Assembly (NCBI GenBank): GCA_003167555.1
Contig: PMSN01000019.1
Coordinates: 1 to 64,000, forward strand
From: Spartobacteria bacterium
Lineage (GTDB): Bacteria; Verrucomicrobiota; Verrucomicrobiia; Chthoniobacterales; UBA10450
Direction: 5' to 3'
DNA: 64,000 bases
Numbering within the stretch: position 1 is the first letter of the stretch; each line of letters begins with the position of its first letter. The notes beneath the pieces are model-generated. The model was not told the origin of the DNA, did not search any database, and saw only the letters and a list, made by a program, of their open reading frames with translations. This document shows positions 51,458-59,773 of the stretch, in pieces. The position numbers and the translations under genes were made by a program.

Positions 51458-53275
51458 TCAAAACAGGTTCTGGAAAACGAGCCTAACGAATGCATTACCT
51501 TGCCGGCCAAAAGTGGGTCCGGAAACGGTGCGCATGTAGCCAGCTTCCAGCTTCGCCGTCACGACCGTCAACTGCACGCCGCCGCCCGCCGCCAGCCAGG
51601 TTTCGCTTGAGGCACCCTGGCCGGATAAGCCGGCGGCGTCTACCATCAAGAGCGGTTTGATTGAGTAGAGATTGGCTTGATCGATGACGAAGTGGGCTGC
51701 TGGCGTTACTTCCTGGAGAATTCGCCTCGCTTGCGTTTCTGCCTCCGCGGCGCTCAACCCTTGTTCCTGCAGAACGGCCGCGAGCATGCTCGGGCCAGTC
51801 ACGTCAATCTGGGTTCTGAGCAGTTGCTTGATGGAAATGGGATTGCCGTTCACATCGGGGATATCGGTGAGTTCATTCGGAATCAAAGGCATCGACCATG
51901 TCGGAATCGGCAAAGTAACATTAAGGTTCACGTGCCAGAATGTGTCGCCTCCAGTCGTTAGGCCACCTGCGCCGCGCAGCCGGGCTTCGTTTTCACCGAA
52001 ACTTCTGATGATCGGCCCCGAAGGCATTTTCATCAGCGCAGTCGAGTTCGAGTTGTCATAGAGAAATTGACCAGGCGCATTGCCGCCAAAGAACTGGGAG
52101 TAGCCCGGCGTGTTGCCCGAAGCTCTGCCACCACCGGCGACGATTTCTATTCCGATCGTCTGGTTCGGAGCCAGCGCGATTTCCTTTTCATAGCCGAGCC
52201 GGCCGACGAAGCGCTGGTAGGATTCGCCCGATCCGGTTTGCCACCCACTTTCTTCCCAAAAGGCCGTTCGCAAGAATCCGTTGATGGAAGGCGGAATGGT
52301 ATCGAGTAGGACGCGGGCGGTTTGTTCGTTAGCCGTCGTATTCGTCTCGAGTGAAGTGGTGCCGTCCAGGAAGGCGTCGCTGGTCCGGCGATAACCGGCG
52401 TCGAGGGAAAGATGGGTGTTGGGCGCCAGCTTCAACTTAAGTCCCACGGTAGCCACGCCCGCGTTACGAGTATGCTCGCTATCTCCCAGTGGTTCTTTCA
52501 CGCCATCGAAGTCAGCCGAGAACATCACCTGTTCCAAGGAAGCGTCAGTGCGCTGGTGGCTGTAACGCAGGCTCGCGTCTCCGCGATAGAATGATTTCTC
52601 GAGCGATTTCGTTCCTTCCGCGCGCAACTCGAACTGCTGCTGTGCCGTGGCGGAATTTACGGCGTCGGACAAGTGTAAGAGATCGCCACCGAAACTGGCG
52701 GAGATCGACGATCCAAAAGCCCGATCGTACGAAAGGCCAACCGTAGGATTGAGAGCCAGGAGGGGCTTCGGGACGTTTGAGTAAAAGGTGGGGCGCGGGG
52801 TCCGAGGAATCGGCAGAACATTGTTGCCTACCTGGACGAGGGAAATGTGAAGGTAGTAGGGCCGGAAAATGACGCCCACAGTCCCATCGTTTGCCGAAGT
52901 GTCGTACTTTACATCGATGTAGAGCACGCCGACTTCGCCTTTCGAATGAAATCCCAGGCTGGCATTGGAACCGGAAGTGATGGCATCCCTCAGCGCCCCC
53001 ATGGCCGCGGAGAGTTTCTCGTTCGTCAGTGTGTCTCCCGCCGCGAGCGGCAATGGAACGTGGTCGGCCCATCGCCCTTCCACCTTCACGTAGCGCACCC
53101 GGAGATCGCGAACTCCATGCGCCTTCGCGCTGGTCAGGGCCACGCCAGTGTCCTGGGGCGTTTTGTCCGTGTCCGAACCGAAGCTCAAGCTTACCGGCGC
53201 GGCATCCTGCGCGAAGCCGAGCGCTGGGAAGATGAGACCAAGACCAAGGACGCACTTGACGCCAAGCTTCTGCAT
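51458..53275 (-). CDS. Large outer-membrane beta-barrel protein with POTRA-like N-terminus
   Basis: A 605-residue product from ATG 53275. It has a signal peptide (GVKCVLGLGLIFPALGFAQ), a region from about 55 to 150 with a POTRA-like or secretin-like strand-helix pattern (LRVRYVKVEGRWA, LTNEKLSAAMGALRDAI), then many alternating strands rich in aromatic and polar residues. It ends in Phe (FVRLVFQNLF), as BAM-assembled barrels do. This fits a two-partner-secretion or Omp85-like translocator; the partner is unknown. The next gene upstream is a hypothetical. Confidence 0.7.
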   Translation of the reverse strand: MQKLGVKCVLGLGLIFPALGFAQDAAPVSLSFGSDTDKTPQDTGVALTSAKAHGVRDLRVRYVKVEGRWADHVPLPLAAGDTLTNEKLSAAMGALRDAITSGSNASLGFHSKGEVGVLYIDVKYDTSANDGTVGVIFRPYYLHISLVQVGNNVLPIPRTPRPTFYSNVPKPLLALNPTVGLSYDRAFGSSISASFGGDLLHLSDAVNSATAQQQFELRAEGTKSLEKSFYRGDASLRYSHQRTDASLEQVMFSADFDGVKEPLGDSEHTRNAGVATVGLKLKLAPNTHLSLDAGYRRTSDAFLDGTTSLETNTTANEQTARVLLDTIPPSINGFLRTAFWEESGWQTGSGESYQRFVGRLGYEKEIALAPNQTIGIEIVAGGGRASGNTPGYSQFFGGNAPGQFLYDNSNSTALMKMPSGPIIRSFGENEARLRGAGGLTTGGDTFWHVNLNVTLPIPTWSMPLIPNELTDIPDVNGNPISIKQLLRTQIDVTGPSMLAAVLQEQGLSAAEAETQARRILQEVTPAAHFVIDQANLYSIKPLLMVDAAGLSGQGASSETWLAAGGGVQLTVVTAKLEAGYMRTVSGPTFGRQGNAFVRLVFQNLF

Positions 53276-53361
53276 TAACGCAAACCAAGTCTGGGATCTC
53301 ACAAGTGGAGGATGACCACAGCCTGCATCCAGCCTGTTCCGACTAACGCCGGAAGCGCCAG

Positions 53362-53971: not shown

Positions 53972-56900
53972 TCAACGCTTCAACGCTTCAGCACCCACCG
54001 CGAACTTCTCAATCTGCTCTTTCACATCGTGGACAAAATTCGCGGCGCCGGCGCCGTTCACGACGCGATGATCGAACGTTAACGACAAGGTAATGAATTC
54101 GGCCGTTTGATTCTTTTTCCCGTCGCCCACGGTTTCATAATGCGCCGACCCGACAAACAAAGTCCCGACTGATGGCGGCACTACGATCGGCGCCGCCGCC
54201 CGCACGCCGAATGCGCCAAGGCTGCTGATCACTACGGGTGCGTTCATTGCGTCCACCCGGCCCGCGCGCGTTTCCTCCACAGTCTGGTTGTAACGCTGCA
54301 CGAAATCCGGCCAGTCGCGCTTGTTTGCATGCGTGACCACGGCCGTCGCCAGGCGATCGTCCTCGAGCGCCACGGCAATCCCGAGATCGAAGTCATCGTT
54401 CTCGATGATGCGATCGTCTTCCAAAATGATCCGGCGGAACGGCGCGTGTTTTTCCATTGCGCGCACGACCGCCCATGCGACCATCACAGAAGGCGACGCG
54501 GCGGTCTTTCCATCCTTTTTCTTCGCCGCCTCGCGCGCTTTGCGGATCGTGTCCCAGAGCGCGTCGATCTGCAAATTCGCGGGGACGACGCGGCCGAGCC
54601 GGCGCACAATCGTCGGCGAAAGAGCGGGCTCGATGCTTGCGCTTTTCTTCTGTAGTGGCAGCCGTGTCGGCTGCTCGGAAGAAGGAGCAGGCGACACGCC
54701 TGCCGCTACAGGTTCAGCGGCGCCGTTTGGTTGTTCCGCGGCCGTTTCAAATTGCTCCGCGAACGAATCGCCTTCGGCCAGGATCGTCCCGAGTTCCTGT
54801 CCGATTTCGACGGTAGCGCCGACTTCCGTTTTCCATTCGCCCATCGTGCCGGCAAACGAAGACTCGATCGGATAGACGGCCTTGTCCGTTTCGAGTTCGC
54901 ACAGCGGATCGTCCAGCTCGATCCGGTCGCCCGGCTTCTTCAAAAGCCCCACGACCTTGGCGTTGCGAATCCCTTCGCCCATGATCGGGACGGTGATCTT
55001 TTGCATACGTTGTTTTGTCGTCCCCGTATTTGTTTGTGCAACTTTCGCTTTTGGCGCGGCCGCTTCCGCGCGCTGCTGCATCGGCGCGATCGCCACACGT
55101 TCAGCCTTCGTCGACATGGAGCGGCGCACCGCCGCGATGATGCGCGCCACGTCCGGCAACGCCGCGTATTCATAGATCGGATTGTAACCGATCATCACGT
55201 TTCCTTTGCTCACCAGAATCGGCGGGCTCGTCATCTCGCTCCAGATTTCCTGCTGCCCGGTGATGTGCGTGATGATCATCTGGCCGACGCTGCAATTCTC
55301 GGTGTCTTCCTGCACGACGATCAATCGTCCTGTGCGCCGCACCGATTCCTCAATCGCCTCGCGATCCCACGGCGCGATCGAACGCAAGTCGATCAACTCG
55401 ACGCTTGCCTCGCCGCCAAGCTGCTCGAGCGCTTCCAATGATTTCTCGATCGTATTTCCCCACGCCACCAAAGTAATGTCCGACCCGGTGCTGCGGGTGC
55501 GCGCTTTGCCGAGGGGGATTGCGCGGATCGGCTCCGTGTATTCGTGTTCGGCCCAGAGCAAATGTTTCGGAATCAGGACGAACGTCGGATCGTCGCAGTG
55601 CATCGCGGTCCAAAGAAGTCCGGCCGCGTCTTCCGGCGTGCTCGGGATCACGATGTTGATGCCGGGATAATGCGCGAGCGCCGACTCGTTCGCCTGGCTG
55701 TGCCACAAACTTCCGCCGGGAAGGTAAGCGCCATAGGGCGCGTAGATCACCGCCGGACATTTCCACGTGCCGAAGGAACGCCAGCGCAAGGTCGAGAGAT
55801 TCGTGACGAGCTGGTTCCAGCCGGGATTGATGAAGTCGATGAATTGCAGCTCGAAGACCGGCCGCTTTCCGTACGACGCGAGCCCGCACGCGACGCCGAG
55901 GATCGTCGATTCCGCGAGCGGTGAATTGTAAACCTGCTTGGGAAATTCCGTCGAAAGCCGCTGGGTCAGGCGGAAGACGCCGCCTTTCGGATCTTCAATG
56001 TCTTCGCCGAAAATGATTCGGCCCGAATCTTTCTCGAGGCCTGCGCGCAACGCCTTGTTGATCGTGTCGCCGATCCGGTATTTGCCCGGCGGAATAATCT
56101 CGTCGGTCAGCTCCGGCGCTTCCCCTCTGACTTCCAGCTCCAGCTCGTCCGCGGACGGATCTTTCTCGCGTTCCGCTTCGGCGAATTCCTGCCGGATGCG
56201 CTCCTTGATTCCCTGGTCGAGCTTCGCGTATTCCTCCTCGGTGATCGCGCCTTCGGCAATCAATTGCTCCTTCCAACATTTGAGCGGATCGCATTTCTCC
56301 AGGTTCTGAAGTTCTTCGGCGCTGCGATAAAGTTTCTGGTCGTCGGTGCTGGTGTGGCTGGAGAGCCGTTCCATCTTTACCCAAAGAAATGCCGGGCCGT
56401 TTCCGGCGCGCAGTCCGGCGATCGCTTTCGTCGCGACATCGTAAACGGTCTGGACATTCGTGCCGTCCACTTCGAGCCAGTCGTTAGGCTGAAGAACACC
56501 GAGCGCGAGGGGATTGATCTCGCGCGTCGGACTGCTGATGCCGTAAGCGTTGTCCTCGACCACGAACATCACCGGCAGCTGTCTCTCCTTCGCGAAACAA
56601 ACCGCCTCGAAAAAATCGCCCTGGCGCGTCGCCGCGTCGCCGATCGTCGCCACGACGAAATTCGGTTTGCTGTCGAGCTTGATGCCCCACGCGATTCCGC
56701 ACGCCGGTAGAAGTTGCGCGCCGGTCGGCGTCGGCACACTCCAAATGTGGCGCTCGGCGTAACTATAATGTGACGGCATTTGCCGGCCGCCGCTTTGTCC
56801 CTTGCGTTTCGCCATGTAATCGAGCGCCAGTTCCCGCGACGCCACGCCGCGTCCCAGCACCAGCGCCCGGTCGCGGTAGTACGGACAAATGTAATCGTCC

Positions 56901-57067
56901 GGCTCCAACTGCACCGAGATCGCCGCGAGCGCCTCGTGTCCCATTCCGGAAACGTGGAAATGTCCTTTGCCCTGGCGATTCAGATTTTGCTCACGCAGAT
57001 CGCCGTGCCGGCTCTCCAAAATCGTGGTCAGCAATTGCAGCTTTCCCTTTTTGCTCAGCGCGGACAT
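53972..57067 (-). CDS. Single-chain 2-oxoacid dehydrogenase E1alpha-E1beta-E2
   Basis: A 1031-residue fusion. The E1-alpha part (1 to about 315) has the TPP motif GDAATRQGDFFEA at 143-155 and EDN at 171-173. E1-beta spans about 330-655. A lipoyl domain follows, with ETDKA at 726-730 and Lys729 as the lipoylation site. The E2 acyltransferase core is about 815-1020. The canonical HxxxDG motif reads HRVVNG, with His1000 and Asn1004 in place of Asp. No E3-binding domain is visible between the lipoyl and core parts. It may be the pyruvate or branched-chain complex. A palindromic repeat lies in frame at 54650-54711. Confidence 0.85.
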   Translation of the reverse strand: MSALSKKGKLQLLTTILESRHGDLREQNLNRQGKGHFHVSGMGHEALAAISVQLEPDDYICPYYRDRALVLGRGVASRELALDYMAKRKGQSGGRQMPSHYSYAERHIWSVPTPTGAQLLPACGIAWGIKLDSKPNFVVATIGDAATRQGDFFEAVCFAKERQLPVMFVVEDNAYGISSPTREINPLALGVLQPNDWLEVDGTNVQTVYDVATKAIAGLRAGNGPAFLWVKMERLSSHTSTDDQKLYRSAEELQNLEKCDPLKCWKEQLIAEGAITEEEYAKLDQGIKERIRQEFAEAEREKDPSADELELEVRGEAPELTDEIIPPGKYRIGDTINKALRAGLEKDSGRIIFGEDIEDPKGGVFRLTQRLSTEFPKQVYNSPLAESTILGVACGLASYGKRPVFELQFIDFINPGWNQLVTNLSTLRWRSFGTWKCPAVIYAPYGAYLPGGSLWHSQANESALAHYPGINIVIPSTPEDAAGLLWTAMHCDDPTFVLIPKHLLWAEHEYTEPIRAIPLGKARTRSTGSDITLVAWGNTIEKSLEALEQLGGEASVELIDLRSIAPWDREAIEESVRRTGRLIVVQEDTENCSVGQMIITHITGQQEIWSEMTSPPILVSKGNVMIGYNPIYEYAALPDVARIIAAVRRSMSTKAERVAIAPMQQRAEAAAPKAKVAQTNTGTTKQRMQKITVPIMGEGIRNAKVVGLLKKPGDRIELDDPLCELETDKAVYPIESSFAGTMGEWKTEVGATVEIGQELGTILAEGDSFAEQFETAAEQPNGAAEPVAAGVSPAPSSEQPTRLPLQKKSASIEPALSPTIVRRLGRVVPANLQIDALWDTIRKAREAAKKKDGKTAASPSVMVAWAVVRAMEKHAPFRRIILEDDRIIENDDFDLGIAVALEDDRLATAVVTHANKRDWPDFVQRYNQTVEETRAGRVDAMNAPVVISSLGAFGVRAAAPIVVPPSVGTLFVGSAHYETVGDGKKNQTAEFITLSLTFDHRVVNGAGAANFVHDVKEQIEKFAVGAEALKR
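54650..54711. repeat. Palindromic repeat inside the dehydrogenase gene
   Basis: CTGTAGTGGCAGCCGTGTCG at 54650-54669 and its near complement CGACACGCCTGCCGCTACAG at 54692-54711 encode the residues 786-807 linker (PVAAGVSPAPSSEQPTRLPL). It is related to the elements at 37563 and elsewhere. Insertion in a flexible Ala-rich linker would be tolerated and keeps the frame. Confidence 0.75.
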
Positions 57068-57188: not shown

Positions 57189-57278
57189 GTCATCCCGAGC
57201 GTAGCGAAGCGAAGTCGAGGGACCCCGAGGAGCGTCGCCCGACATCCCACGGGGTTCCTCGACTGCGCTCGGAATGAC
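57189..57278. repeat. GTCATCCCGAGCG bipartite repeat element
   Basis: GTCATCCCGAGCGTAGCGAA at 57189-57208 and the mirrored GACTGCGCTCGGAATGAC ending at 57278 bound an imperfect inverted repeat. It lies in the divergent gap between the dehydrogenase and threonine synthase genes and overlaps the upstream codons of the latter's frame. Confidence 0.7.
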
Positions 57279-57315
57279 CTCGGCGACACGCCTACGCCTT
57301 GTAAAAGCCTTTTGC

Positions 57316-58452
57316 ATGCGAGACTTGTTCGATCGCATGAACGAACCAGCTGAAGTCAATGTCGCTCCAGACCGGGGCAGGGGAGTCATCGCGCGTTACC
57401 GAACCTTCCTTCCCGTCTCGGAGTCGACGCCAATCGTGTCGTTAGGCGAAGGCGGCACGCCGCTGATTTTCTCACCGCGCCTCAGCGCCATCGTCGGACG
57501 CGGTTGCGAAGTTTACTTGAAATACGAAGGACTCAATCCCACCGGCTCGTTCAAGGACCGCGGCATGACTGTGGCCGTCTCGAAAGCCATTGAGCGCGGA
57601 GCCGCCGCATTGATCTGCGCTTCCACCGGAAATACCTCCGCATCCGCGGCGGCGTATGCGGCGCGCGCGGGAATCCGTTGCGTGGTCGTCTTGCCCGCGG
57701 GGAAGATCGCCAGCGGCAAATTGGTTCAGGCTTTCGCTTACGGCGCCAAAGTCGTCGCCATCGATGGCAACTTCGATGACGCGCTCCGGATCGTGCGCGA
57801 ACTTGGGCAGCGCGACGATTTCGCGATCGTGAACTCGATCAATCCGGATCGAATCGCCGGACAAAAAACAGCCGCTTTCGAAATCGTTGACGAACTCGGC
57901 GACGCGCCCGAACTCCATCTCCTTCCGCTCGGCAACGCCGGAAACATTACCGCATACTGGGCCGGTTATCGCGAGTACCGCGACGCGGGAAAATCGCGAA
58001 CGCTCCCCGCCATGCTCGGTTTCCAGGCGGCCGGGGCAGCGCCGATCTTCCACGGCCGCGTCGTCGAACAACCGGAAACGATCGCCTCCGCGATTCGGAT
58101 CGGGAATCCCGCCAGTTGGGAAGCCGCGAAGGAGGCCGTCCGTGATTCGCACGGCGTCGTCGACATCGTCACCGACACCGAGATTCTCGAAGCGCAATAT
58201 TGGCTGGCCACGCACGAAGGAGTTTTCGTCGAGCCCGCGAGCGCCGCGCCCATCGCCGGCCTTTTCAAATGCTGCGAGCCGGCGCGCGCACCCGCGTATC
58301 CATTCACGAAAATTCCGGAAGCGAGCAGAATTGTTTGCACCGTGACCGGCCACGGCTTGAAGGATCCCGACGTGATGGCGGACCGCCTAACGACCCTGAA
58401 CGCCGTCGCGCCGAACGAGCAGGAGGTGTTGCGTGCCATCGAGGAGAGTTGA
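57316..58452 (+). CDS. thrC: Threonine synthase
   Basis: A 378-residue PLP enzyme that makes threonine from O-phosphohomoserine. The PLP lysine is in [11 protein letters not shown], and the phosphate loop is [13 protein letters not shown]. The start is taken at ATG 57316; ATG 57337 also fits, and ATG 57274 is within the repeat. It precedes aspartate kinase by 70 bases and both act in the aspartate family. Confidence 0.93.
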
Positions 58453-58522: not shown

Positions 58523-59773
58523 ATGCGACTGATCGTCCAAAAGTACGGCGGCACTTCGGTGGGAACGCCGGAGCGCATCCGCAACGTCGCGCGCCGATTG
58601 CTCGAAACCCAACAGAGCGGCTGCAAAGTGGTCGGAGTCATCTCCGCCATGGCTGGCGTGACGGATAATCTGATCAAGCTCGCGCGCGAGACTTCGCCCC
58701 AACCGACGGAGCGGGAGATGGACGCATTGCTCGCCACCGGCGAATTGGCCGCGATCGCGCTGATTGCCATGGCGATCAACGCCCTTGGTGGAAAAGCGAT
58801 CTCATTGACCGGCGCTGAAGCCGGCATCCTGACCGATCGCGCCCACACCAGAGCGAGGATTGCGAACATCGCGCCGAAACAGATTCACCAATTGCTTGCC
58901 GACGATTACATCGTCGTCGTCGCCGGCTTTCAGGGTCAAAATCCCGATGGCGACACGACCACGCTCGGCCGTGGCGGCACTGATCTGACCGCGATCGCGC
59001 TCGCCGGCGCCTTGAATGCCGACGCCTGCCAGATTTTCACCGACGTCGATGGCGTCTTCACCTGCGATCCGCGTGTCGTGTCCGAGGCGCAAAAGCTCGA
59101 TGAAGTTGCCTACGACGAACTTCTCGAGATGGCCGGCGCCGGCTCAAAGGTGATGCAATCGCGCGCCGTCGAGTTCGCCAAGAAATTCGGGGTGGAATTC
59201 GAAGTGCGCTCGAGCTTCCATCAGAACGCCGGGACGATCGCGAGGGAGGAAACCGCGAACATGGAAGACGTGGTCATTCGCGGCATCAGCGTCGATCGCA
59301 ACCAGGCCAAGCTCACGGTCGATGACGTGCGCGATGAAGCCGGGATCGCTGGACAGATTTTTTCCGCGATCGCGAGCGGCAACATCGTAGTCGACATGAT
59401 TGTGCAAAGCGTTTCCAAGCATGGAACGACCGACATCTCCTTCACCATCCACGAAAACGACTTGGACGCGGCGACGAAGTTACTCGAACCGGTGGTCAAG
59501 GAAGTTCAGGCCGCGGGCTTGATCACCAAAAGCGGCGTCGCCAAGCTGAGTGTCGTTGGGATCGGGATGCGGTCGCACTCGGGCGTCGCCGCGCGGTTGT
59601 TCGATTGTCTTGGAAGGGGCGGAATCAACATCCATTTGATCTCGACTTCTGAGATCAAAATCGCCGTCGTGATTGATGGCCAGGACGCGGACCGCGCCGC
59701 CCAGCTCACCCACGAAGAGTTCGGCCTGGCCAAGTTCATCCCATCCCAAACGCCGCAGTCCGCCGACGAATAG
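58523..59773 (+). CDS. lysC: Aspartate kinase
   Basis: A 416-residue aspartokinase for lysine, threonine and methionine synthesis. The start MRLIVQKYGGTSVG has the KYGGTS motif. The GRGGTDLTAIALA segment and the FTDVDGVFTCDPR motif follow. The C-terminal regulatory part has two ACT domains, so feedback inhibition is expected. It stands downstream of threonine synthase on the same strand, probably in one operon. Confidence 0.95.
   Translation: MRLIVQKYGGTSVGTPERIRNVARRLLETQQSGCKVVGVISAMAGVTDNLIKLARETSPQPTEREMDALLATGELAAIALIAMAINALGGKAISLTGAEAGILTDRAHTRARIANIAPKQIHQLLADDYIVVVAGFQGQNPDGDTTTLGRGGTDLTAIALAGALNADACQIFTDVDGVFTCDPRVVSEAQKLDEVAYDELLEMAGAGSKVMQSRAVEFAKKFGVEFEVRSSFHQNAGTIAREETANMEDVVIRGISVDRNQAKLTVDDVRDEAGIAGQIFSAIASGNIVVDMIVQSVSKHGTTDISFTIHENDLDAATKLLEPVVKEVQAAGLITKSGVAKLSVVGIGMRSHSGVAARLFDCLGRGGINIHLISTSEIKIAVVIDGQDADRAAQLTHEEFGLAKFIPSQTPQSADE

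Follow-up and report, generated by a model that had tools for sequence, protein, structure and literature searches.

The window, by which we mean the whole 64,000-nucleotide stretch of Spartobacteria DNA that was analysed, carries on its minus strand a gene (53972..57067, stop included) that is translated without internal stops from an ATG at 57067 to a stop at 53972, giving a protein of 1031 amino acids. Pfam placed five domains along this chain, in the order E1_dh, Transket_pyr, Transketolase_C, Biotin_lipoyl and 2-oxoacid_dh; all lie on the minus strand. The E1alpha (ThDP-binding) domain occupies residues 22–305 (56153..57004; PF00676, 6.5e-53), followed by the pyrimidine-binding domain of E1beta (residues 334–504, 55556..56068; PF02779, 9.4e-26) and its transketolase C-terminal domain (residues 520–618, 55214..55510; PF02780, 7.3e-23). 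These three domains, with their ThDP motif and a conserved GDAATRQGDFFEA region, are those of an E1 of the alpha/beta type. Beyond a first linker (residues 657–686, 55010..55099) comes a single lipoyl domain (residues 690–762, 54782..55000; PF00364, 1.8e-15), whose target lysine, K729 in ETDKA (54881–54883), is invariant among relatives. A second linker (residues 766–808, 54644..54772) stands at the usual place of a peripheral-subunit-binding domain (PSBD) and leads into a CAT-like E2 catalytic domain with a shortened N-terminal arm (residues 812–1022, 54002..54634; PF00198 at residues 832–1022, 9.1e-33). The lipoyl domain with its lysine and the CAT-like domain with a DHxxx(D/N)G motif are those of an E2 acyltransferase. 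The initial annotation had described the gene as an unusual one-chain E1alpha–E1beta–E2 fusion, a description borne out by the uninterrupted frame, the Pfam domains and full-length relatives; the lipoyl domain was a part that it had not mentioned.

An artefactual fusion, caused by a frame or assembly error, was rejected because the single chain is full-length in dozens of other genomes. Within its own family, 35 of 37 sampled genomes carry it, either intact or broken by contig ends, against only 1 of 21 sampled from other families of the same order. Sampling across Verrucomicrobiota yielded E2-fusions in 28 of 387 genomes, nearly all of them full-length, down to about 48% identity, and the 80 best-matching loci among GTDB genomes all belonged to this phylum (Chthoniobacterales, Spartobacteria, Udaeobacter, Opitutaceae/Opitutae). 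The carriers are verrucomicrobial bacteria of soil and freshwater. Conservation is very high in the E1 and lipoyl parts and strong in the E2 domain, with K729, D999, H1000 and N1004 unchanged across the fusion relatives compared. This spread and conservation in the sampled genomes indicate that the fusion is real and old within the phylum.

Divergent from the fusion gene lies a gene for a PLP-dependent enzyme that reads as threonine synthase (57274..58452, plus strand; PF00291), followed by one of the aspartate kinase type (AA_kinase and ACT; 58523..59773, plus strand; PF00696/PF22468). The former neighbour (cluster c1) recurs in 46 of about 80 loci and is kept in Chthoniobacterales loci; the latter (cluster c2) recurs in 38. 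With genes for threonine synthase and aspartate kinase as its neighbours in the window's own family, the fusion has a context there that offers no clue to the substrate. Many Opitutaceae have a hydratase/3-hydroxyacyl-CoA dehydrogenase gene just upstream of the fusion, and in one further genome (G039) the fusion stands between genes for an enoyl-CoA hydratase and an acyl-CoA carboxyltransferase, all on the same strand and a few bases apart in an operon-like array. These neighbourhoods fit CoA-linked acyl catabolism. Further genes lie nearby. In the window, a 614-residue protein (51458–53302, minus strand) without any Pfam match begins like a signal peptide and resembles an outer-membrane beta-barrel, and in G039, near the fusion (L041:1–1801), a carnitine-dehydrogenase-like gene adjoins a frame that by eye resembles a beta-keto acid cleavage enzyme.

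The active-site motif of the E2 domain is DHRVVNG (residues 999–1005, 54053..54073), so the reading of HRVVNG in place of HxxxDG had been correct as an observation. By alignment, D999 corresponds to Asp374 of E. coli E2o, H1000 to His375, and N1004 to Asp379, or to Asn614 of Azotobacter vinelandii. The E2p of A. vinelandii is a classic E2 structure; its PDB sequence, aligned to the window protein, reads DHRVINGAAAARF (motif HRVINGA), and the titles of PDB entries 1dpb/1dpc/1dpd refer to the role of Ser558, His610 and Asn614. The position of Ser558 is S948 in the window protein (54224..54226) and is Ser or Thr among the fusions. Activity of E. coli E2o suffers most when the DH pair, Asp374 and His375, is changed (2.1% activity as Ala), and the Asp379Ala variant keeps 9.5% (PMC5986005). 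The proposal that Asn replaces the catalytic-helper Asp is therefore right in that the HxxxDG Asp has changed, but the Asp of larger effect, Asp374, is kept as D999. An alignment of this region across related fusions, which had been suggested as a check, gave DH[R/K]xxNG in every fusion compared, with the Asn, D999 and H1000 all invariant. The model of the C-terminal half matched solved E2 cores at Z 24–25, with an rmsd of about 2–3 Å over about 200 residues.

As Asn occurs naturally in A. vinelandii E2p and the DH pair is invariant, the site is ordinary rather than broken, and the suspicion that Asn marks a damaged or special E2 falls away. The active-site residues are intact and look normal, and the E2 is predicted to be catalytically complete. 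An E2 inactivated by its Asn, with acyl transfer done by another E2, could appeal to the mere 9.5% activity left in E. coli E2o Asp379Ala; we regard it as highly improbable and have rejected it, given the A. vinelandii sequence and PDB titles, the retention of D999 and H1000 throughout, and the conservation of the whole domain. As judged from the alignments, N1004 is instead a mark of lineage, common to the fusions and to the lipoyl–E2–ACP loading modules of Streptomyces considered below.

PF02817 (E3_binding) was matched neither in the window protein nor in any of 57 C-terminal halves of relatives, with Pfam at E≤10. A custom HMM was built from eight genuine PSBDs, with seven held-out E2s and shuffled sequences as controls. 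The held-out genuine E2s scored 13–54 bits. Among 79 fusion rows, in which a few sequences are present in duplicate, the top score was 2.1 bits, less than the 7.8 bits of the highest-scoring shuffle. Both linkers are predicted to be disordered (pLDDT about 30–40; about 30 in linker 1 and 29–40 in linker 2), neither contains a helix pair in the predicted structures, linker 2 varies between genomes, and the linker alignments revealed no conserved docking segment. A hidden PSBD is rejected on these grounds, and the chain differs from a canonical E2 in having none between its lipoyl and catalytic domains by Pfam, HMM or models. The missing PSBD reported by the initial annotation, which had advised a search for a binding helix pair, is thus upheld, and its question of how E3 joins is a genuine one.

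The genome encodes one full-length E3, as do most genomes of the same family, and a dedicated second E3 near the fusion gene was ruled out, there being none in the genome. In a genome scan, a PSBD scored above cut-off in each of three further E2s, which belong to a PDH operon (contig C26), an OGDH operon that includes E3 (C10) and a third E1alpha/E1beta/E2 set (C12). The E2 of this third set (C12:334500–337100; L039) reads DHRSLDG, has a weak PSBD and lies far from the NCBIfam PDH cut-offs. One glycine-cleavage H protein is also encoded.

The C terminus of canonical E2s is a hydrophobic segment (E. coli SucB, ...LEDPTRLLLDV; AceF, ...RRLVM; the PDH E2 of the same genome, ...ENPALLLI). In the fusions this segment is missing and the chain stops shortly past a Phe that is nearly invariant (...IEKF, ...IERFDLV); in the window protein the tail is residues 1023–1031 (53975..54001). 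Aligned with five canonical E2s, the window protein and seven other fusions lack the C-terminal knob (e.g. ...TRLLLDV) that makes the trimer–trimer contact in a cubic or dodecahedral core. In actinobacterial E2 this knob contact is lost and a conserved Phe fills the pocket, so that trimers remain, and OdhA, in which E2 and E1 are fused, forms a homohexamer that combines dimers of E1 with trimers of E2 (PMC10415282). By analogy, we infer that the near-invariant Phe of the fusions fills the same role. Active sites of E1 require two chains and those of E2 require three; as the knob is absent too, the fusion probably assembles in the manner of OdhA, for example as a hexamer built from dimeric E1 and trimeric E2, and not as a 24- or 60-mer core.

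In a tree of E1alpha plus E1beta, which has few outgroups and long branches, the E2-fusions formed one clade (100/99). Of the relatives tested, those nearest to them were fused E1alphabeta proteins encoded in plasmid clusters of Streptomyces (99/97), and the next clade comprised fusions of other Verrucomicrobiota in which ketoacyl-ACP synthase III (KASIII) replaces E2 behind the same fused E1alphabeta–lipoyl half. The three groups shared a branch (100/100) that excluded the split sets of E1alpha and E1beta. Similarly, the E2 tree grouped the Streptomyces E2s with the fusions (100/99) and separated them from the tested canonical E2s. The Streptomyces clusters (L209:7971–18481, L211:4914–11944, L212:3971–9971) have a fused E1alphabeta gene and then PKS/NRPS genes, the protein encoded after E1alphabeta beginning as lipoyl–E2–ACP–ketosynthase with an E2 that reads DHTVLNG or DHTVFNG. 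They encode SARP regulators, and some also carry pabB and chorismate-mutase genes; they appear to be of the streptogramin type. Their loading modules are like the fusion in their DHxxxNG motif and in having no PSBD by profile; they differ in that E1 is a separate protein and E2 is followed by ACP and ketosynthase, the acceptor presumably being the ACP. A PSBD-like stretch noticed by eye in these modules (PPRTRAHARRLGIDESLL...ADLQRY) was unsupported by Pfam and the custom HMM. The KASIII fusions (L162–L183, from other families of Verrucomicrobiota; e.g. L164:897–4403, minus strand) are in most cases 1107–1210 residues long. Seven scanned by Pfam carry PF08545 and PF08541 at the place of E2, and most of the others have the Cys, His and Asn motifs and the lipoyl lysine. 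This suggests that they condense acyl-lipoyl directly with malonyl-ACP, bypassing acyl-CoA.

The reading that we prefer, at a probability of roughly 60%, is that the protein is a catalytically complete one-chain 2-oxoacid dehydrogenase core with untethered E3, assembled as an OdhA-like oligomer. The E1alpha–E1beta half would decarboxylate a 2-oxo acid and reductively acylate K729 of the same chain, and flexible linkers would let the lipoyl domain swing across to E2, which would transfer the acyl group to CoA by means of H1000 with D999/N1004. Since E1 is covalently fused, no PSBD is needed to hold it. Dihydrolipoyl-K729 would then be reoxidized by the cell's E3 as a diffusing partner that no PSBD holds. 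The H protein of the glycine-cleavage system is served by E3 without a PSBD and gives a precedent for an untethered E3. The substrate is probably a branched-chain 2-oxo acid. The gene context in G039 and Opitutaceae, of an acyl-CoA and branched-chain amino-acid kind, is one line in its favour. The best PDB match of E1 is the Thermus 2-oxo acid dehydrogenase (1um9), although E1beta scores equally with 1ik6, called pyruvate dehydrogenase. Streptogramin A starter units are isobutyryl, and a bkdAB cluster is a plausible source for virginiamycin M (PMC6963833, PMC9636800); the isobutyryl starter in the apparently related virginiamycin/pristinamycin clusters favours a branched-chain substrate.

Free diffusion would be the simplest account of E3, and its main rival is that E3 is borrowed in a mixed supercomplex with a PSBD-bearing E2 of the PDH, OGDH or third complex, much as AceF serves the OdhA of actinobacteria. 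Since the genome has a single full-length E3 alongside three E2s that bear a PSBD, and since the OdhA reaction in C. glutamicum requires AceF (PMC10415282), this has some appeal, but the fusion, unlike OdhA, has its own lipoyl domain and so needs no other E2 for acyl transfer, and its linkers show no conserved docking segment; we consider borrowing unlikely. Still less probable is direct docking of E3 to a surface elsewhere on the fusion, whether of E1, of the lipoyl domain or of the trimer of E2 domains. The very conserved E1 and lipoyl parts leave room for an unrecognized site, yet catalysis accounts for the conservation of E1, and the chain offers neither an extra domain nor a conserved helix pair, its linker 2 being variable and disordered.

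A different departure concerns the acceptor: the acyl group might go from E2 to an acyl-carrier protein, either in place of CoA or in addition to it, and so feed lipid synthesis. Such a role would suit the closest E2 relatives, the lipoyl–E2–ACP–KS loading modules of Streptomyces with the same DHxxxNG, as well as the sister fusions that terminate in KASIII and the shortened N-terminal arm of E2. However, no carrier-protein gene was seen adjoining the fusion, and the neighbours in Opitutaceae and G039 are CoA-linked enzymes, and we rank transfer to ACP lowest of these three departures. Transfer to CoA with a diffusing E3 is retained as the preferred reading. More tentatively, and at somewhat less than even odds, the fused E1alpha–E1beta–lipoyl unit could be a chassis with a lineage of its own, to which interchangeable acceptors are joined: a PSBD-less E2 (CoA, perhaps ACP), KASIII (malonyl-ACP, no acyl-CoA) or, in Streptomyces, a polyketide ACP, with E3 serving all of them untethered.

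Textbook 2-oxoacid dehydrogenase complexes are huge assemblies in which the PSBD acts as holder. In this conserved family all catalytic steps are fused, the PSBD and the cubic-core contact are gone and ordinary complexes are present in the same cell, which makes the purpose of the PSBD and of the giant core directly testable. The KASIII fusions suggest a CoA-free route by which 2-oxo acids, and hence amino-acid carbon, could enter fatty acids; if true, this would be a new link from 2-oxoacid dehydrogenase complexes to lipid synthesis. Our search of the open-access literature (subscription journals were outside its scope) found neither E1alpha–E1beta–E2 nor E1–lipoyl–KASIII fusions. OdhA/KGD (PMC10415282) likewise joins the catalytic domains of E1 and E2 in a single chain and has its E2 outside a cubic core, the latter shown for OdhA and predicted for the fusion. 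It differs in that E2 precedes a homodimeric E1o, the lipoyl domain comes from AceF and the substrate is 2-oxoglutarate, whereas the Pfam order of the fusion has E1alpha–E1beta, of the alpha2beta2 type, ahead of its own lipoyl domain and E2, and thus sets it apart from OdhA/KGD. The complexes with an alpha2beta2 E1 (Thermus 1um9, G. stearothermophilus, human BCKDH) have the same catalytic domains, but on separate E1alpha, E1beta and E2 chains, and their E2 bears a PSBD and builds a 24- or 60-mer. The E2p catalytic domain of A. vinelandii and E. coli (1eaa, 7b9k) shares the fold and, in A. vinelandii, the Asn in HxxxDG, but belongs to chains with a PSBD and a cubic core with a C-terminal knob. 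Another untethered layout was seen on a plasmid of Paraburkholderia sprentiae (L216:2378–5506), which encodes separate E1alpha and E1beta, a free lipoyl protein of 76 residues and a 275-residue E2 (DHRVING) apparently with neither lipoyl domain nor PSBD.
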